Shown piece by piece: positions 3,678-37,443 of a stretch of DNA of 39,475 nt. The notes beneath the pieces are model-generated. The model saw only the letters and a list, made by a program, of their open reading frames with translations, was not told where the DNA came from and made no database searches. How positions within the stretch are numbered: the first letter of the stretch is position 1; each line of letters opens with the position of its first letter. The stretch is taken from the IMG/VR virus record IMGVR_UViG_3300034021_001118, positions 1 to 39,475 of that record; one strand, given 5' to 3'. The translations under genes and the position numbers were made by a program. Origin of the DNA: a virus.

Positions 3678-5234
3678 ATGGCAACAAGAACACCAGCCCG
3701 CCGCCCGGCACCAGCACCCGCTAAACGACCAGCGCCTGCACCAGCCCGCCGCCCTGCAAGACGCCGGCCGCAAGGACCACAGCGAGGAACCAACATCAGC
3801 GCACCAGCGATTGCCGCCGAAGGGCGTAATCTCGCCGCTGAAAATGTCGGTTTTATCAACCAGAACCTTCCCGCGGCTGCCAACAACTTTAGCAACATCC
3901 AGCAGGGACAGATCGACGCGCAGGCTGGCCGGTTAGACAACCGTTTCACGCAATCGGCCATCGACGCTGGGCAGAACGTCATGGGCCAATCGCAAGCTCT
4001 CGGCGGGCTTGGCTCGCTGGCCTCCGCGCTTGGCGTTGGCAATATGATATCTGGCCCGACACGCTCAGAGCGACAGCTTCAGCGCCTCGGCCAGCAGGCT
4101 ATGGGCGTGCGCGCCGACCAAGTGGTTGAGCCAACGAACGTCCGCGAGGTTGCCGCTCAGAATGTCTCCGGCGCCCAGCTTGGCGCGGTGCGCGACGTGT
4201 CGGCAGTCAACGCCGACCGCGTCAGGAATGTCAGGGCCAGTAATGTCGGTCAAGGCCAACTTGGATCTGCCCTCATGCAGCAGGCCATCAGCCGAGCCAG
4301 CAGCAACGGAATGCTCTCGCCAGAAGCGTCACGCGATGCAGTGCAGGCGGCTCGCCAAGGCATGGCAGCGCGCGGTCTGGCTACCGGAGGCGCCGGAATG
4401 GCCGCCGAACTTCTCAACCGTGACCGCTACTCGCGCGCCCGCATGGCCGAAGACAATGCGTTTGCCGCTGCCGTCCAACAGCAGGACATTGCCCGCCAGT
4501 TCAGCAATGTCGGCAACCGCTTGCAGGCATCATTGGCCAACCAAGGCGTGGCGGCGCAGCAATCATTGGCCAATCAAGCGGCGGCGATGGACGCCCAGCG
4601 CCTCAACCAAGGCACCGACCTTTCCATTGCACAGGCTGACGCTCAATTCCAGCAGCAAGCCAACTTGGCCAACCAAGACGCCGCCATGCGCGCCGGTTTG
4701 GCCAACCAGCAGCGCGACCAGTTCCTTGGGCAAACGTCCATGGAAGCCCAGCGCCTCAATCAAGCGGCCAACATGCAGCAGACCGACGCAAATCGCTCGT
4801 TCATGCTGAATGCCAACAACGCCGTCAATCAGGGCATGCTCAATCGCCAAAACTTCGGCATGGGGCAGCTTGGCCTCGGAGCCAACCTCTTGGGCAACAG
4901 CGGTACGATGGGGATGAATTACGGCAACTACATGACGAGCCTCGACCCCTACTCTCGCGCAATGAGCGCCGGTATCAACATGGGTCAGTTCAGCGGCCAA
5001 GCCGCAGGCAACATGCTCAACAACCAGCTCGGCGGAATGATCGACCTGTCTGGTAATGCAGCGACGTTCAATACGAATCGTCAGGACAGCCTTTACAATA
5101 ACTATCAGAACAATCGGGCGGCGATGCGTGCGGCGAATATGCAGGCCGGTGCGCAGCAGAACGCGGGCATGATGGGCATTTTTGGTGGGATCGGTGGCGG
5201 TGTGGCTACCGGAATCGCGGCGGCTTCTTTCTAA
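3678..5234 (+). CDS. Gln/Asn-rich virion (internal/ejection) protein with basic N-terminal tail
   Basis: A 518-residue protein. The first ~35 residues are almost only Pro, Ala, Arg and Lys (repeats of ARRPAPAPA), resembling histone-H1-like DNA-binding tails. The rest is rich in Gln, Asn, Ala and Met and strongly helical, with repeated SLANQ / LANQ segments around residues 275-350. The C-terminus ends in a glycine-rich hydrophobic stretch (GIFGGIGGGVATGIAAA) that could insert into a membrane. Composition and place between the fibre and the giant protein suggest an internal or ejected virion protein, comparable in position to T7 internal core proteins. No catalytic motif was seen. Its stop overlaps the next start (TAATG). 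Confidence 0.6.
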   Translation: MATRTPARRPAPAPAKRPAPAPARRPARRRPQGPQRGTNISAPAIAAEGRNLAAENVGFINQNLPAAANNFSNIQQGQIDAQAGRLDNRFTQSAIDAGQNVMGQSQALGGLGSLASALGVGNMISGPTRSERQLQRLGQQAMGVRADQVVEPTNVREVAAQNVSGAQLGAVRDVSAVNADRVRNVRASNVGQGQLGSALMQQAISRASSNGMLSPEASRDAVQAARQGMAARGLATGGAGMAAELLNRDRYSRARMAEDNAFAAAVQQQDIARQFSNVGNRLQASLANQGVAAQQSLANQAAAMDAQRLNQGTDLSIAQADAQFQQQANLANQDAAMRAGLANQQRDQFLGQTSMEAQRLNQAANMQQTDANRSFMLNANNAVNQGMLNRQNFGMGQLGLGANLLGNSGTMGMNYGNYMTSLDPYSRAMSAGINMGQFSGQAAGNMLNNQLGGMIDLSGNAATFNTNRQDSLYNNYQNNRAAMRAANMQAGAQQNAGMMGIFGGIGGGVATGIAAASF

Positions 5235-6043
5235 TGACCTACGAAGACAAAGTCTCCTACGCCCACCGGCTCATTGAGCAGTCGCTCGCCGAGTTTGGCC
5301 AGCCGTGCATCGCTTGCTCTTTCGGCAAGGACAGCATGGTGGTGCTGGACTTGGTGCGGCGCCACCGCGATGACCTGCCGGTGGTGTTTCACCGCGAGCC
5401 TTGGCAGCCGCACAAGTATCGGTTCGCCGATGCGGTGATCCAGCACTACGGACTGCGCGTCTACGATTTCCCGCCCTCGGCCACGATGGTGCAGGACGGC
5501 GGCGGCGAGGTGGAGATCGCCGGATACTACCAGATCGGCGCCCGCTACAATATGCTGCCGACCGGTATCCGCGCCCCGAAGGACGGCGAGGACTTTGTCT
5601 GTGGTCTCAACGACATCTATCAGCGTCCGACCGGCACGTTCAATTGGCCGTGGGATGCGATGTTCCATGGCCACAAGGCGAGCGATACGGATGCGGTCTA
5701 CGGCGACATCACGATCCGCACCGATGTGGCGCGCAACCTGGACAGCGCCAGCCTTGTCTTCCCCATCCGCCTCTTCACCGATGAGGACGTGTGGCGCTAC
5801 ATCGAGGAGAACAATTTGCCCATCCACCATGGCCGCTACGAGAAGGTCGGCGAGTCATGGCAGGAGCGGGAGGACAAAGGTGACAACCCTGACTATGTGA
5901 CCGCCTGCACGGCGTGCATGGCCAAGGACGGACCCGCCGAGGTGCTGTGCCCGCGGCTTGGCCAATTGGTGAGTAATGTGAGCGATCAGCTCCGGTGGTC
6001 ACAAAAAGAACGCCCCAGCTACCTGCGGGCCGAAGCAGCTTAA
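5234..6043 (+). CDS. PAPS-reductase-family (N-type PP-loop ATPase) enzyme
   Basis: A 269-residue enzyme of the phosphoadenosine-phosphosulfate reductase family. The PP-loop SFGKDS is at residues 29-34, and a family-type FTDEDVWRYI helix lies in the C-terminal half, followed by cysteines in TACTACM and CPRL that could bind metal or an Fe-S cluster. Members activate sulfate esters or adenylate substrates; DndC- and IbrA-type relatives act in DNA phosphorothioation or unknown phage functions. I see no Dnd partner genes, so the substrate is open. It sits inside the virion operon with a TAATG overlap to the gene before, so it is made late, which is unusual for a metabolic enzyme. The family is sure, the reaction is not. 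Confidence 0.85.
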   Translation: MTYEDKVSYAHRLIEQSLAEFGQPCIACSFGKDSMVVLDLVRRHRDDLPVVFHREPWQPHKYRFADAVIQHYGLRVYDFPPSATMVQDGGGEVEIAGYYQIGARYNMLPTGIRAPKDGEDFVCGLNDIYQRPTGTFNWPWDAMFHGHKASDTDAVYGDITIRTDVARNLDSASLVFPIRLFTDEDVWRYIEENNLPIHHGRYEKVGESWQEREDKGDNPDYVTACTACMAKDGPAEVLCPRLGQLVSNVSDQLRWSQKERPSYLRAEAA

Positions 6044-7487: not shown

Positions 7488-10400
7488 ACGGATTAACCGA
7501 CGAGCAGCTCGCCGAGCTGGAAGCGCAGCAGGGACAGCCGGAGATCACCACCGGACTGGTGGATCGCCTTGCCGCATCCCCTGCTCCGGCGCAGGGATTC
7601 ACCGACCAGCAGCTTGATGCGCTGCCAGCGCTGGCCTCCACGCCGTTTGCCCGCGAGCGTGGCATTGCCTTGCCGCCCGAAGCTCCCGCGGAGCCGGAGC
7701 CGATGACAGACTATGAGCTGAACCAGCTCGAGGAGGAGAACTACCGCCGCGTGGACTACATCATGCCGCAGGAGGAGTTCCGGCAGTATTGGACGCGACG
7801 CAAGGAGGAGAACAACGAGGTCGGACGCTTCATCGATGGTGTAGGCCAAGGTGCCGCAGCCATGATCGGCATGCTGCCGCAAGCGGCCAATGAGATCACC
7901 GATGCGCTGATCACGGGCGTCAAAGATCCGCTGCGCCAAGCTGAACGCAATTTGCAGACCGGCGCGGAGATCGTCCGCAAGGCTGGCATCAACATGGTGC
8001 AGCTCTTCGATTGGGTCGGCAACAAAGCCAATGACGCGGCAACCTGGGCGAAGCGCCGCGGACTGAAGCAGCAGGCATTGGCCAAGCGCCTCGAGCAGGA
8101 AGGCAAGCTGACCGGCGATGAGCTGCGGGACGCGAACATTATTGCCGCGGCGGCCAGCGAGGCGGATGCGATGGAGCCGATGCCTGTGGAAGAAGAAGAG
8201 GATTTCGACAAGGCTTACGAGCGCTACCAGCGTGAGAAGGCGCTTGAGCAGGAGTTCGCCGGAGTCACAGACTTTCAGATCGGCGCCAGCAAGGTGAGCG
8301 CGCCGGCGGCGACCAAGGAGGCTTACCAGATTACCGACGAGCAGCCTGCGGAAACGCTGTCGATGATCGGCTCCATGGTTGTCGATCCGGTCAATTTGAT
8401 CCCGGTCGGTGCGGGCGCGTTGAGCAAGCTGCGCGTGCTTCGCCGCACGGCAACACTCGCCGGCGCCCCGCTTCGAGGCGTGCAGCGTGCGGCCGATGCC
8501 ACGGCAGACCTCGCCGAGCGCGCAGAGTTTGGCATCAGCAGTCGCGTGCAGGACATCACCGGGCTGACCGCAAAACAGCAGGCAGCGCTTGGTGCCGGTG
8601 CGGCCGGTGCTGCGGTCTATGCGGACGCGGCGGGCGGCGGCGGCAATGTTACCGCGGCAGTCACGGCCATCGGCAGCGTGCTGCCCGGGCTGCGTTATGG
8701 CGGTGCGATCATCCGCAAGACCGGAGCGGCGGCCGGCGGTGCGGCGACCATCATCCGCGAGGCGGGTGTGGGCGGCATCGGCACGGCGCGAGCGGAAGCG
8801 GCGGCCGACTTGGCGCGCATGACGGCGATCCCTGAGCGCTACCGGAAATACTTTACAGGCTACGTTGACGGCACCGACAGCACGCTCAAGCGCGTGGCGC
8901 AGGATGCTGGCAACCCGGAGGCGCTGCGCCGTGTGGCGCGCTTTGCCGACCGCGCTGGCGTAACGACGGCGGCGCGCTTGGCTGACGATGTGACGAGCGG
9001 AGCGGTGGCTGCTGGCATTACCGGAGCACCCTTCGCTGCATTGCAACCGGATGCCGAGCGCGCCGGTGAGGTGCTGGGCGGCATCATGGCCTTGGGTGGT
9101 GTGGCCGGAGTTGCTGGCAGTGTGGCTCGCCGCGGAGCTACGGAAGCGGACGCGGACATCGCCCGCATGATGGCTGACGTGTATGCGGTGGGCGGCAACA
9201 TCGATGGTTTTTCTCAGCTCCCACACGCCACCCTAGACAGGCTGGCTGCCATGCAGGGAATGCTTGCAAGCAAAGTAGACTTTGTCCCGCTGCGCGCTGA
9301 CGAGTATCGCAAAAACAAGGACACATCCGAAGTTGGCGGCGAGCTCTCTGCCGGTCTGTTTTTAGAAAAAGACGCTAACAACCGCGCAAGAATTTACATC
9401 AATCTTGATGCACGACCCGGGCAAGGCGGCGCCGCGGCCATTGCTCCGCATGAAATTGGCCACGCCATTCTGACAAGCAACGTCCTCGACGGACAGCCGC
9501 GCAACGACCTGCGCAACTTGGTCAACCAGCAATACGGCGTTGAAGGCGTGACCGCACGCGGACGCGAGTATGTGACGCGATTGGTGGATGGCGACATCCA
9601 GAACGGCACGACCGGAGAGCTGCCGCAGGTGCTGACCGAGCAGGAGTTCCGTGACCTTGAGAGCGGCAACAAGTCGGCGGCAGACATCTCCAAGGCGCGC
9701 AAGCTAGAACCGAGCGAGCGGGAGAGGCTGATTAACGAGCGCTACGAGGAGCTGTCGCAGCGCAGCATTGAGCGTGGCGAAGATGCCCTGGACTGGGCGC
9801 GCGACGAGATCATCGCCGAGACATTTGCCAGCGAGGCGCCGGCCATTGACTTCCGCGCCATCCGCCGCGATGCCGCCTTCCCTCGCCTCGCCGAGTCCAT
9901 GCTGGCTACCGGCGGGCGCGTGCTGGAGATGATGGGCGTGCGATTGGACAGCGGCACCGGCAAGATGCTGGACAATCCGTCTGTCCTCTTCCGCGACAAT
10001 CCGCTTTTCCAAGACCGCATCATGCAGAAGCGCGTGAAGGAATACGTCCGCGCCTACGATCAGTATCTGGTCGGCCTCGAGGAGGCTGGCAGCGCAACGC
10101 CCCGCGGCGTAGAGCTGGCGCGCAGCAGCCGCCCGGAGGACATGGCGCGCAGCACGCACGTCAAACTGCGGGACGAGGGTCGCGGTGTCCTTGAGAACGA
10201 TTTCCTTTTCCAAAAGCCGGACGGCACCTACGCCTACAAGCCGCAGCCGATCATTAATGCCGCCGAGGCCAACCGAGCGGCGCAGATCAAGACGCTGTAC
10301 GATGCGAAGAAGTTCGTGCCGGTCAACTCGACCGAGTTTGGCAAGCGCAAGGTCAACGGACGCGAGGTGATCGGCGGGCCGGTGCTGCCGCCGCAGTTTG

Positions 10401-18810: not shown

Positions 18811-18959
18811 GCGAGACGCTTTTACTTCCTTCACCCGCGCCGGAAGCCAACCGCAGCCGCCGCGAGCGCACCCCGCAGGAAGAAGCCGAGTGGCTCGAGG
18901 ATAAGCGCGCGGAGTACGAGGCCGACCGCTGCTGCGGGCATCACTGGGGCAACATCTAA
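18807..18959 (+). CDS. Small charged protein with CCGHHWG end
   Basis: A 50-residue protein, very rich in Arg and Glu, closing with DRCCGHHWGNI, a Cys/His cluster that could bind zinc. It is too short to be classified. It starts with an ATGA overlap and ends just before the Shine-Dalgarno of the methyltransferase locus. Confidence 0.55.
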   Translation: MSETLLLPSPAPEANRSRRERTPQEEAEWLEDKRAEYEADRCCGHHWGNI

Positions 18960-18973
18960 GGAGCAACAATGTG
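18958..18973 (+). promoter_or_regulatory. One Shine-Dalgarno serving two out-of-frame starts (ATGTG)
   Basis: AAGGAG at 18958-18963 is followed by CAACAATGTGG. The ATG at 18969 (spacing 5) opens the 418-codon alternative frame; the GTG at 18971 (spacing 7) opens the methyltransferase frame. Both spacings are workable, and the two starts overlap by one base, so initiating ribosomes would divide between them. Confidence 0.7.
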
Positions 18974-20225
18974 GATACTACCAAAGCAATTACACACGTC
19001 TCCCTTTGTGCCGGCTACGGAGGCATTGATCTCGGACTTAAACGAGCAATCCCAAGCCTGCGCACAATCGCTTTTAGTGAGATCGAAGCCTTCGCCTGCG
19101 CGAACTTGGTCTCTAAAATGGAAGCGGGACTCTTGGACCCAGCTCCTATCTGGACGGATCTTAAAACCTTCCCATGGGCCGAGTTTCGCGGCCGCGTGGA
19201 CATCCTCTCTGGCGGCTATCCGTGCCAGCCATTCAGCGCAGCCGGAAAACGCCTCGGCGCCGAAGACCCACGACACCTCTGGCCGCACATATCAGCCGGA
19301 ATTGCTGCAATGCGACCAAGTGTCTGTTTCTTTGAAAATGTCGAGGGACATATCAGCCTTGGGCTTCCCGACGTGCTGCAAGACTTGGCAGGAATGGGTT
19401 ACCGAACGACGTGGGGCGTATTCAGCGCGAGTGAAGTTGGCGCGCCGCACCAGCGGAAAAGAATCTTTATCTTGGCCCACCGTCACGGCGAACGAGGACA
19501 GCTACCGGATTGGTGGCGAGTCGCAGCAGAGCAAGTGCCTGTCGGCGATGGCGAGGCGTGGAGAGATGGACGAGAATTGGTCAACGCCGAATTGCACAGA
19601 CGGCAAGACTGGCAGCACGACAACTCAGGGCCGCAGCTTAGTGGCGGACATACAACTCCATGGCCAAGCCGCCCCGGCGAGCAGCAGTTCGCTTGGGAGC
19701 CGCCAAGGGTTGTGGCCAACGGCCAGCGTCCCGAACGGCGGCCAGACAACATCGGGACGAGCGGACAAGGACAGCAAGAAGCAGGTGCGGCTGGAGCATG
19801 CGGTGGCTCAATGGGGCACGCCGGCAGCCAACGATGCGAACAAGACTCCGCATTGCGAGGTCAACAGCAATCAGGCCGGATTAGCGAAGAGTGTGGGCTT
19901 GGAGTTGCAGAGGCAATGGGGCACGCCAACAGCACGCGACCACAAGAGCGGCCGAGGCAACGAGGAGCGGGAATACAAGGAGCTGACGCCGATGGTGGAG
20001 AGAACGCAGGCGGGGAAATTAAACCAGAATTGGGTTTGCTGCTTGATGGGAGTGCCGATGGGTTGGGTGGACCCAATGTGTCCGGTCTCAGTGATCAAGA
20101 GCTGGCCGAGATTCGTGATTGGATGGTTACGAGCACAAACCGCACCGATTCCCTGCGACTCCTCGGCAATGGAGTCGTGCCTGCCACCGCAGAGCGAGCT
20201 TTCCGAGTTCTCGTTGGCGAGTTGA
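18969..20225 (+). CDS. Alternative-frame ORF covering the methyltransferase gene; probable overlapping gene
   Basis: A 418-codon frame starting at the ATG at 18969, 2 bp before the methyltransferase GTG, and ending 17 bp before its stop. Its protein has its own repeated pattern: W-x-T-x repeats (SWPTVTANED, NWSTPNCTDG, LWPTASVPNG, QWGTPAANDA, QWGTPTARDH) at DNA positions 19473, 19578, 19713, 19812 and 19917, and a C-terminal LNQNWVCCLMGVPMGWVDP motif. I recall W-P-T-P repeats and LNPxWVExLMGxPxGW motifs from C-terminal regions of phage methyltransferases, and hypothetical phage proteins opening with MWxLPKxLHTS; neither was checked. Length alone proves nothing, because other shadow frames here are long too. 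It could be a real overlapping protein or the C-terminal half of a frameshifted methyltransferase. Confidence 0.55.
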   Translation: MWILPKQLHTSPFVPATEALISDLNEQSQACAQSLLVRSKPSPARTWSLKWKRDSWTQLLSGRILKPSHGPSFAAAWTSSLAAIRASHSAQPENASAPKTHDTSGRTYQPELLQCDQVSVSLKMSRDISALGFPTCCKTWQEWVTERRGAYSARVKLARRTSGKESLSWPTVTANEDSYRIGGESQQSKCLSAMARRGEMDENWSTPNCTDGKTGSTTTQGRSLVADIQLHGQAAPASSSSLGSRQGLWPTASVPNGGQTTSGRADKDSKKQVRLEHAVAQWGTPAANDANKTPHCEVNSNQAGLAKSVGLELQRQWGTPTARDHKSGRGNEEREYKELTPMVERTQAGKLNQNWVCCLMGVPMGWVDPMCPVSVIKSWPRFVIGWLRAQTAPIPCDSSAMESCLPPQSELSEFSLAS

Positions 20226-20242
20226 TGGAGCACCAACCATGA
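18971..20242 (+). CDS. dcm: DNA (cytosine-5) methyltransferase
   Basis: A 423-residue C5-cytosine methyltransferase starting at GTG 18971. Motif I (SLCAGYGGIDLG, residues 11-22) follows the start at once, so no later start is possible. Motif II is SEIEAF, motif IV GGYPCQPFSAAGK with catalytic Cys85, motif VI FENVEG at 121-126, motif VIII QRKRIFI at 161-167, and motifs IX/X LLGNGVVPATAERAF at 397-411. Between VIII and IX lies a ~220-residue low-complexity segment that may include the target-recognition domain. No restriction nuclease lies nearby, so it is probably an orphan enzyme protecting phage DNA. It shares almost its entire length with the ORF at 18969 in another frame. Confidence 0.9.
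   Translation: MDTTKAITHVSLCAGYGGIDLGLKRAIPSLRTIAFSEIEAFACANLVSKMEAGLLDPAPIWTDLKTFPWAEFRGRVDILSGGYPCQPFSAAGKRLGAEDPRHLWPHISAGIAAMRPSVCFFENVEGHISLGLPDVLQDLAGMGYRTTWGVFSASEVGAPHQRKRIFILAHRHGERGQLPDWWRVAAEQVPVGDGEAWRDGRELVNAELHRRQDWQHDNSGPQLSGGHTTPWPSRPGEQQFAWEPPRVVANGQRPERRPDNIGTSGQGQQEAGAAGACGGSMGHAGSQRCEQDSALRGQQQSGRISEECGLGVAEAMGHANSTRPQERPRQRGAGIQGADADGGENAGGEIKPELGLLLDGSADGLGGPNVSGLSDQELAEIRDWMVTSTNRTDSLRLLGNGVVPATAERAFRVLVGELMEHQP
19473..19946 (+). repeat. Five diverged ~30-bp repeats readable in two frames
   Basis: Units begin at 19473, 19578, 19713, 19812 and 19917 with TGG followed by an ACG/ACC or AAC trinucleotide. In one frame they read W-x-T-x-x-x-x-D/N; in the methyltransferase frame they read HRHGERGQ, NAELHRRQ, NGQRPERR, HAGSQRCE and HANSTRPQ. 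Units 4 and 5 share TGGGGCACGCC. Spacing varies from 99 to 135 bp. Confidence 0.7.
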
Positions 20243-35334: not shown

Positions 35335-37443
35335 ATGATCAAAGCACCCGACCGCGACAAAATCTCCGAGATCCTCTCGGACATCGATGAAGCCGACGCC
35401 GATGGCAGCGGCTACGTCCAGCGCAAGCTCCGCAACTGGAACACCCGCTTCTGCATCTGGGCTGGCCAGACCGACGACGGCCGCAAACACCAAGAAGCCC
35501 TCGGCAAGCGCCCGTTTCCATGGGACAAAAGTTTAGATTCGCGCGTCCGCATGGCCGACACCATCGTCCGCGACCACGTCGCCATGCTGACAAACGCCTT
35601 CTTCAAGGCGCGCGTCCAGGTCCAGCCCGTCGAGTCCATGGACATCGACAAACGCAGCGCTGCGGAGTCCGTCCTCAAGTGGCTCCTCTTTCAGCACGTC
35701 TTGGATGACCTCCGGCGCGAAGTGCAGCTCGCCGCCAACTTCCGCGAGACCTACGGCCTCGCTGTTATGGCCGTCGATTGGATCAAGACCACCCGCACCG
35801 AAATCAAGTCATTCTCCATGGAAGACGCCATGGCCATGCTGCAGGAATCCCAAGATCCCAACCTGCAAGCCCTCCTTGAGGTCGTCCTCGACCCCGAGCA
35901 AGAAGAACTCGCCGCCCAGCTCATGGGCGAAGTCATCCCAGAACTCGGCACCACCGCCAAAGTCCGCCAGTTCCGCGAAAAAGGCTTTGTCGAATGGGAG
36001 CAACCCTACGTTTTTGAAAGCCGGCCCCAGTGGACCGCTTTGGAACCCTGGGAGGACATAATTTTTCCAGCTCAAACCTATAGTCTACAGCGTGCTGCGT
36101 TCGTTGCCCGACGCGAGCTAATGACCGAACCGGAGTTGCGCGAACGTGCCGCTGTAGAGGGCTGGGATGACAAATGGGTCGAGCAAGTCGTGGAGAAGAA
36201 AGGCGACATCCGCCGCATCTCGCTGAACCTCCACCGCAGCGACCAGTTCCTCTACGACCACCAGCGCGACATGATCGAGATCTGGCACGTCTACAGGAAG
36301 GAGCACGACGACCGCACCAAGGCGATGCGCGTCACCCGCACCGTCCTCAGCTACCACGTCCCGGATCGCACCGCCGTCCACGACATTTTGCCCTACGCCC
36401 ACGCGCTCTATCCCTTCGTCGAGCTGCCCCGCGAACGCGCCTCGCGCCCCATCTTGGAATCCCGCGGCGTGCCGGAGATCGTCCAGACCGCCCAGGAAGA
36501 AGTCAAAATTCAACGCGACATGCGAGGCGACCGCGCCAGCATCGTCACCTTGCCCCCGCTCAAAACCCCCGCCGCGCGCGGCAAGATGGACCTCATCATG
36601 GGGCCGGGCGTCCAGATCCCCGAGCGCCGCCCCGGCGAGATCACTTGGATGAACCCGCCGCAGCCCGACGCCGGCAGCATCGAAGTCGAAATGTCCATCC
36701 GCAACGACGTGGACAACTACTTCGGCCGCATCAGCGAAGCCGTCCCGCCGCAACGCTATATGCTCCACACCCAGGAGCTGGTCGATAGCTGGCTCCTTGA
36801 TATGAAGCTCTGCCTCGTCCAGACGCTTTCGCTCTGTCAACAATACATGACCGCGGAAGAAGTCGCCCGCGTCACCGGCAACCCCAATCTCCCGCTCACC
36901 GCCAGCCCCGCCGACATCCGCGGCCGCTTCGACGTGACCTGCGAGTTTGATGCCCGGTTGCTCGACAACGAGGCGCTCGGAAAAAAGCTGGATTATTTGG
37001 CCTCCGTGCTCACTCCGCTGGACTCCTTCGGAGTCATAGATCGAGTAGGTTTGGTCAAATATATGATGCAGGCAGTAGACCCAAATCTCGCCGGCATCCT
37101 CATCAAAGACATCGGCGCCGCTACCCAGGCCGAGCAAGAAGACGAACAAGCCGCCTTCGCCAAAATCGCCGCAGGCACCGAACCCCCGCTCAAAGAGGGC
37201 GGACAAAATGCCCAAGTCCGCCTGCAAACCTTGCAGACGATCATCCAGTCGAATCCCGCCGTCCAACAACGCTACGCCCAAGACGAAATCTTCCGCTCCA
37301 TGATCGACGCGAGAGCACAAGCCTTCCAGTTCCAGCTCCAACAACAGCAAAACGCCGTCATCGGCCGCACCGGCGCCCAGCCCGCGCTGCAAAAGCTCCA
37401 ACAAGACCAGCAACTCGGCATGTCCGCCCAACCCGCCGCCTGA
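35335..37443 (+). CDS. Portal protein (head-tail connector)
   Basis: A 702-residue portal of the P22/podovirus class. The start (DRDKISEILSDIDEADADG) is followed by a long mixed domain including FRETYGLAVMAVDWIKT, the stem/wing region around 380-480 (QTAQEEVKIQRDMRGDRASIV), and a long helical C-terminal part with ~60 residues of Gln-rich barrel (LQLQQQQNAV). It forms the twelve-unit ring through which the terminase packs DNA and to which the tail attaches. Length is at the high end of the family. Confidence 0.85.
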   Translation: MIKAPDRDKISEILSDIDEADADGSGYVQRKLRNWNTRFCIWAGQTDDGRKHQEALGKRPFPWDKSLDSRVRMADTIVRDHVAMLTNAFFKARVQVQPVESMDIDKRSAAESVLKWLLFQHVLDDLRREVQLAANFRETYGLAVMAVDWIKTTRTEIKSFSMEDAMAMLQESQDPNLQALLEVVLDPEQEELAAQLMGEVIPELGTTAKVRQFREKGFVEWEQPYVFESRPQWTALEPWEDIIFPAQTYSLQRAAFVARRELMTEPELRERAAVEGWDDKWVEQVVEKKGDIRRISLNLHRSDQFLYDHQRDMIEIWHVYRKEHDDRTKAMRVTRTVLSYHVPDRTAVHDILPYAHALYPFVELPRERASRPILESRGVPEIVQTAQEEVKIQRDMRGDRASIVTLPPLKTPAARGKMDLIMGPGVQIPERRPGEITWMNPPQPDAGSIEVEMSIRNDVDNYFGRISEAVPPQRYMLHTQELVDSWLLDMKLCLVQTLSLCQQYMTAEEVARVTGNPNLPLTASPADIRGRFDVTCEFDARLLDNEALGKKLDYLASVLTPLDSFGVIDRVGLVKYMMQAVDPNLAGILIKDIGAATQAEQEDEQAAFAKIAAGTEPPLKEGGQNAQVRLQTLQTIIQSNPAVQQRYAQDEIFRSMIDARAQAFQFQLQQQQNAVIGRTGAQPALQKLQQDQQLGMSAQPAA

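Follow-up and report, generated by a model that had tools for sequence, protein, structure and literature searches.

What does a phage gene for a cytosine-5 DNA methyltransferase (C5-MTase) encode when a second reading frame lies open over almost all of its length? The question is posed by an IMG/VR virus record of 39,475 bases, analysed here over its whole length and referred to below as the window, in which the initial annotation had pointed to a 418-codon ORF covering nearly the entire MTase gene in another frame, with 1255 bp in common, and had left the choice between a second protein superimposed on the first and a shift of ribosomes from one frame to the other. Both ORFs are there as described (Table 1), with an overlap at 18971-20225 and with the alternative frame at +1 relative to the MTase frame.

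The dual-frame locus

The window carries tailed-phage genes, namely those for the terminase, the major head protein, a DnaB-like helicase and an O-like replication protein, along with ssDNA-binding protein and exonuclease genes that belong to the same set. Long antisense ORFs of 577 and 437 aa are also present on the minus strand at 7493-9226 and 36118-37431, opposite long plus-strand ORFs, and are likely an effect of the G+C content.

Table 1. Features of the dual-frame locus in the window (alt, alternative or nested frame; MT, MTase frame; the ratios are defined under Selection on the two frames)
Feature	Position	Strand	Remarks
Nested (alt) gene	18969..20225	+	ATG start; 418 aa, stop included; W-x-T repeats and motif IX
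C5-MTase gene	18971..20242	+	GTG start; 423 aa, stop included; motifs I-VIII and X, without motif IX
Shine-Dalgarno AAGGAG, common to both starts	18958..18963	+	5 nt to ATG, 7 nt to GTG
Overlapping starts ATGTG	18969..18973	+	alt ATG 18969-18971, MTase GTG 18971-18973, common G
MTase-frame motifs I-VIII, most of the large catalytic domain	18992..19495	+	PF00145; MT dNN/dSN 0.21
Alt N-terminal extension, specific to the window family	18969..19170	+	MWILPKQLHT...SPARTW..KWKRDSW...; alt dNN/dNS 0.34 (0.29-0.39)
Five alt-frame W-x-T units, proposed target-recognition region	19473..19943	+	alt dNN/dNS 0.30, MT dNN/dSN 0.83
Alt-frame LNQNWVCCLMGVPMGWVDP, C5-MTase motif IX	20019..20075	+	alt dNN/dNS 0.06, MT 3.16
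MTase-frame motif X (LRLLGNGVVPATAE)	20156..20197	+	C-tail MT dNN/dSN 0.11

The five W-x-T repeats that had been noticed in the alternative frame are found at residues 169, 204, 249, 282 and 317 of its product (nucleotides 19473, 19578, 19713, 19812 and 19917). How easily could such a frame remain open by chance? When the codons of the MTase frame were shuffled synonymously 20,000 times, the alternative frame was open as long as observed in 11 of the shuffles and contained 6.2 stops on average; in the 16 other long ORFs of the window, the longest open run in the same register amounts to 253 codons. Because the G+C content is high (59%), we nevertheless judged ORF length alone to be insufficient, and the decisive evidence for the alternative frame is comparative and goes beyond the shuffle test.

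Conservation of the nested frame

Relatives of the alternative protein are encoded in 257 IMG/VR stretches, the best 80 of which were kept; two of these (L019 and L063) are fragments cut by a contig end, and the 78 near-complete relatives among the best 80 of 257 all have an uninterrupted alternative frame of about 345-570 codons. An open MTase frame accompanies it, in the same register, in every near-complete relative except one (L066), in which the frames are rearranged. The initial annotation had made the case for a second gene depend on intact homologues and on abnormal synonymous variability across the overlap, and the former are provided by these relatives. Two resemblances that it had pointed out are borne out as well: the MWILPKQLHT start, which it had linked (as MWILPKQLHTS) to unannotated phage proteins, recurs among the IMG/VR relatives, and the C-terminal motif (LNQNWVCCLMGVPMGWVDP), which it had linked to the tails of phage methyltransferases, is widespread in phage methyltransferase loci. 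The start region of the 80 family sequences, the window included, reads ATGTGG in 60 and ATGACATGG in 18, the latter with separate ATGs 5 nt apart; in both arrangements a start codon is kept for each frame.

The same pair of frames occurs on an alphaproteobacterial plasmid and in named phages of Lacticaseibacillus, Acinetobacter, Bacteroides, Pseudomonas and Paenibacillus, where the frame adjoining the MTase contains W-P-T repeats and finishes in a motif IX-like stretch; the nested frames of Lc-Nu and Lily are shortened. Prophages of E. coli carry the dual-frame pair, too. In the lambdoid prophage of E. coli cS100a (L504:1357-2526), neither the MTase frame (404 codons) nor the nested frame (343 codons) is interrupted, and yet the MTase is listed in RefSeq as a pair of incomplete pseudogene fragments. 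The Paenibacillus larvae phage genes DIVA_50, LILY_63 and BLOOM_57 are members of the nested family, labelled by their annotators as 'internal gene' or as a second 'DNA cytosine methyltransferase', without the internal gene being tied in these annotations to motif IX or to a subunit role. The number of W-x-T units, counted by pattern, ranges from 0 to 7 between loci (L142, L096, L126 and others in the viral scan for WVEWLMGFP described below), as expected of a modular region.

Selection on the two frames

Selection was estimated with a simplified count of the OLGenie type, in which sites and differences are classed by their effect in both frames, so that constraint on the alternative frame is expressed as dNN/dNS and that on the MTase frame (MT) as dNN/dSN. 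In the window family, 692 pairs give an overall alt dNN/dNS of 0.62 (0.55-0.70) and a value of 0.23 for the stretch of motif IX. Independent pairs were then drawn from four sets: the window family, the IMG/VR scan, bacterial genomes and the Fernvirus type. In the W-x-T region, alt dNN/dNS is 0.30, 0.11, 0.20 and 0.09 in these sets, respectively, and MT dNN/dSN is near neutral (0.83, 1.23, 1.01 and 0.59); at motif IX, alt dNN/dNS falls at 0.06, 0.17, 0.07 and 0.07. Motifs I-VIII are constrained in the MTase frame in all four sets (MT dNN/dSN 0.13-0.25), and so is the C-terminal tail wherever it was computed (0.11-0.34), the tail and overall ratios coming from sets other than the Fernvirus type, which consists of 6 pairs. 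The frame under selection thus changes where motif VIII ends and changes once more after motif IX.

Some of the conserved words of the alternative frame are in part shadows of the MTase motifs, the word KMTATSG, for instance, being the shifted reading of EDDRDLWP. A control within the same genes and in the same register is provided by the region upstream of the nested start in the other families, where alt dNN/dNS is 0.93 (0.82-1.05), that is, neutral, compared with 0.57 (0.52-0.62) inside the overlap; over motifs I-VIII, constraint beyond the shadow stays. The alternative frame is a real gene, under purifying selection once the constraint of the MTase is allowed for.

Division of the methyltransferase motifs

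The initial annotation had credited the MTase frame with all the main C5-MTase motifs, which holds for motifs I-VIII, including PCQ and ENV, and for motif X; motif IX is located in the alternative frame. A Pfam search matches PF00145 to residues 8-175 of the MTase-frame product (E=2.4e-33), and this match covers profile positions 2-166 of 324 only; motif IX is absent from the MTase-frame polypeptide, and the score for TIGR00675 is under its cut-off. It is the alternative frame that contains the consensus LNxxWVxxLMGxPxGW, which is motif IX of the C5-MTase small domain, downstream of the W-x-T repeats. In C5-MTases, most motifs reside in the large domain, and the variable region and motif IX in the small one (PMC3404938). 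The split between the frames matches the large (I-VIII and X) and small (variable region and IX) domains of M.HhaI and M.HaeIII, which suggests that the nested protein is the missing small domain, so that a single enzyme appears to be divided between the two ORFs, rather than an MTase being paired with an unrelated protein. That the nested protein adopts the small-domain fold is our proposal from the motif arrangement.

The MTase frame is matched by phrog_363 (E=9e-58), and phrog_1008 matches the alternative frame of the window (E=1.3e-20) and the Paenibacillus phage internal gene BLOOM_57 (6e-72); judging by these matches, phrog_1008, labelled 'DNA methyltransferase', is in fact the nested frame. 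No Pfam or NCBIfam family matches the alternative frame or the nested family, no solved structure in the PDB was matched by the nested-family profile, and the alternative region over motifs I-VIII resembles no known part of an MTase. AlphaFold2 models of the nested protein alone are of low confidence, with a mean pLDDT of 48.6 for the window and 59.7 for a Paenibacillus-phage homologue; they predict a helix at motif IX, and Foldseek found nothing significant in the PDB with the nested-protein model. Models as poor as these would be expected of a chain that needs its partner in order to fold, a point that we do not count as evidence.

How general is the division? We scanned viral and bacterial genomes for DNA coding for WVEWLMGFP, the counts being samples from the matches listed. 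Among these matches, the MTase N-terminal domain lies in frame +2 in 74 of the 75 testable viral loci and in 110 of the 112 loci from bacterial genomes, covering the motif in 108 of the latter; motif X, in the MTase frame, usually follows at +53 or +125 nt, and, contig-edge cases aside, no nested ORF clearly without an MTase was found among the matches listed. A converse sample consisted of IMG/VR C5-MTases picked solely by catalytic motif IV (scan for GFPCQPF), a gene counting as dual when its alternative frame has at least 80 open codons upstream and at least 50 downstream of motif VIII. By this measure 95 of the 106 genes are dual, and among the 11 that are not, a canonical motif IX occurs in the MTase frame of 10, whose alternative runs are mostly short. 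Of the 95 dual genes, 69 match the motif IX pattern, and several of the other 26 have a divergent motif IX when inspected by eye.

Loci in which motif IX or X has shifted between the frames are rare, and each motif is still carried once. In L331, a contig from a bacterial genome (MTase ORF 4496-5759, nested ORF 4845-5598), the MTase frame includes motif IX, and the nested ORF keeps its W-P-T repeats but stops just before IX; here a single frame holds LNPDWVEWLMGFPVGWT followed by GNAVV, and this stretch is aligned without gaps by HMMER to residues 272-314 of M.HhaI (RKLHPRECARVMGYPDSY...QFGNSVV), a match that is weak on its own, at about -1 bit. In three further loci (L217, L154 and L157), a short ORF with motifs I-VIII occupies one frame, and the repeats and motifs IX and X the other. 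Two more layouts were seen. At L066:2391-3980, three frames carry, respectively, motifs I-VIII, the alternative N-terminus, and the later repeats with IX and X, which is either a real rearrangement or a sequencing error; at L260:5806-6793, motifs I-VIII and IX are in one frame, X in another and the nested N-terminal part in a third.

Evidence for independent initiation of the nested protein

In the window family the nested frame starts at the MTase start, with an N-terminal extension that is missing from the common nested form, which has an internal start. A collection of 279 nonredundant dual genes was assembled to examine initiation. With genes cut by a contig edge left out, every gene of four sets (54, 104, 77 and 29 genes) has at least 94 open codons in the alternative frame ahead of the end of motif VIII, and permuted genes have 30-75 there on average. 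In families other than that of the window, the nested start is usually 100-105 codons upstream of this point and is followed by a recurrent EQLTLF-like N-terminus. A Shine-Dalgarno sequence of at least 4 nt is present at 79% (n=53), 90% (n=39) and 60% (n=15) of the nested starts in three sets, against 13-17% of control positions outside the window family (11-17% over all sets); in the window family itself, the figures are 56% (n=54) and 11%, respectively. Fourfold-site divergence of the MTase drops at the nested start from 0.60 upstream to 0.34 downstream (Fisher 5e-30, 48 independent pairs), so that synonymous variability across the overlap, the other point on which the initial annotation had made the case depend, is far from normal.

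The conserved start, the Shine-Dalgarno sequence and the synonymous drop argue for two separately translated proteins and against frameshifting. Together with the open-frame floor, these features suggest that the small chain is a protein in its own right; a downstream frame devoid of initiation of its own, as in a frameshifted gene, is not what we find. On comparative grounds, it is strongly supported that the nested frame has its own initiation, and not FRAMESHIFTING.

A probable enzyme in two chains, and the alternatives

An explanation that we consider highly probable is that of a dual-frame C5-MTase, in which two proteins, independently translated from the same DNA, are proposed to assemble into one enzyme. 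The MTase frame would give rise to an alpha subunit, that is, the large catalytic and AdoMet-binding domain with motifs I-VIII and X, in which an unconstrained, probably disordered loop would stand in place of the small domain; the +1 frame would give rise to a beta subunit equivalent to the small domain, with the W-x-T repeats as proposed target-recognition elements and with motif IX; and the alpha and beta chains would assemble into a single site-specific methyltransferase. As far as the aligned genes go, both frames are conserved and selected, the nested start is a separate one and the catalytic motifs are divided; we infer in addition that the two chains bind each other and that the W-x-T repeats recognize DNA, and the benefit would most likely be the protection of phage DNA from host restriction.

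Could the two frames instead yield a single chain? Under programmed frameshifting, ribosomes would translate motifs I-VIII, shift to the alternative frame for the repeats and motif IX and shift back for motif X, which would account for the fact that selection changes frame after motif VIII and after IX. Such a scheme, however, requires two opposite shifts, and it predicts neither the conserved nested start with its Shine-Dalgarno sequence, nor the floor of about 100 open alternative codons upstream of motif VIII, nor the drop in synonymous divergence of the MTase at the nested start, nor the strong constraint on the alternative N-terminus in the window family. We regard it as very improbable and reject it because of the open-frame floor, the Shine-Dalgarno sequence at the nested start and the synonymous step; of the two options left by the initial annotation, the second protein is thus strongly supported and frameshifting strongly disfavoured. 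Some room, albeit small, has to be given to the view that both proteins are made and that the nested one is a separate accessory, such as an anti-restriction factor or a regulator, acting outside the methyltransferase, given that the N-terminal part of the nested protein resembles nothing known and that its model is of low confidence. This unlikely scenario does not explain why the nested protein holds the very motif IX that the MTase frame lacks, why IX or X moves between frames without being lost, why enzymes with a motif IX of their own in the main frame have no nested ORF, or why, contig-edge cases aside, nested ORFs clearly without an MTase did not turn up among the WVEWLMGFP matches listed.

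The remaining two possibilities deserve hardly any credence. The alternative frame could be open merely as a consequence of the G+C content of 59% and of the MTase protein sequence, and some of its conserved words are indeed shadows of MTase motifs; but the permutations, the estimates of selection, the same-gene control, the Shine-Dalgarno sequences and the step at the nested start are all contrary to this, in the middle region the roles are reversed, with the MTase frame behaving as the shadow, and the neutral control upstream of the nested start refutes a chance or shadow ORF. It is just as far-fetched to view the MTase frame as decaying and the alternative frame as the stranded remnant of an ancestral single-frame enzyme: the middle region of the MTase does evolve neutrally, but motifs I-VIII and X are under strong constraint (MT dNN/dSN 0.11-0.34), and loci of great diversity keep both frames open.

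Relationship to known systems

A two-chain C5-MTase has a precedent in M.EcoHK31I and its relative M.EaeI. The gene for the small subunit of M.EcoHK31I is nested, in a different frame, within that for the large subunit, and activity requires both proteins. According to PMC3404938, which cites Lee et al. (1995, NAR 23:103) on the division of the motifs, M.EcoHK31I (YGGCCR) is a natural two-polypeptide C5-MTase with motifs I-VIII and X in the large chain and IX in the small one; in the same source, its target-recognition domain (TRD) is predicted in the large subunit. It is the closest precedent for the window, where motifs I-VIII and X likewise belong to the large chain and IX to the small one. 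The principle is therefore already known from a restriction-modification enzyme. The differences are that the TRD of M.EcoHK31I is placed in the large subunit, whereas in the window the variable W-x-T array, which may serve recognition, is in the nested protein; that M.EcoHK31I is part of a restriction-modification system, whereas the dual genes described here are found in phages and prophages; that the nested ORF of the window, unlike that of M.EcoHK31I, starts 2 nt before the MTase and has an N-terminal extension; and that, again unlike M.EcoHK31I, the dual arrangement is here the majority type in the sampled collection.

Other parallels are looser. M.AquI is a C5-MTase split into alpha and beta chains, with motifs I-VIII in one and parts of the small domain in the other (PMC3404938). 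The loci L217, L154 and L157 resemble it in having IX and X together in the second chain. In M.AquI, however, the small subunit contains motif X and the variable region is divided, whereas motif X of the window is in the MTase frame, and the genes of the window, unlike those of M.AquI, overlap almost completely. In Rz/Rz1 of phage lambda, a gene is nested out of frame within another and the products work together; these are unrelated proteins, the lysis spanins. In the ShiLan element (PMC11855218), a phage methylase gene harbours an HNH endonuclease that is read out of frame, but this is a homing insertion of 195 aa that stands outside the enzyme, whereas the alternative ORF of the window spans the whole gene and contains an MTase motif. 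We found no description of a phage-wide dual-frame arrangement in the accessible literature, most subscription papers lying outside the search; as far as that literature shows, what is new is that this is the majority form among the sampled phage C5-MTases, that the repeats are in the nested chain, and that selection and initiation both testify to the second gene.

Implications

Extending this to tailed phages at large, we find it reasonably likely, though with less confidence than we have in the two-chain enzyme itself, that their dominant C5-MTase consists of two chains encoded by one DNA in two frames, with the W-x-T array as a module of specificity that gains and loses units. If so, catalysis and specificity would evolve in different frames of the same DNA, and the familiar C-terminal GRVADGVPxRVDR in annotations of phage methyltransferases would for the most part reflect, as a shadow, the out-of-frame motif IX. 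Many annotated phage methyltransferases that pass for 'complete' would then be part of an enzyme whose partner is usually unannotated, and codon-optimised cloning of the annotated ORF alone would destroy that partner, with the consequence that the enzyme would be wrongly scored as inactive. With its many naturally overlapping genes, the family also allows one to ask how two frames share one sequence, and the role of the nested repeats in DNA specificity becomes a testable question.
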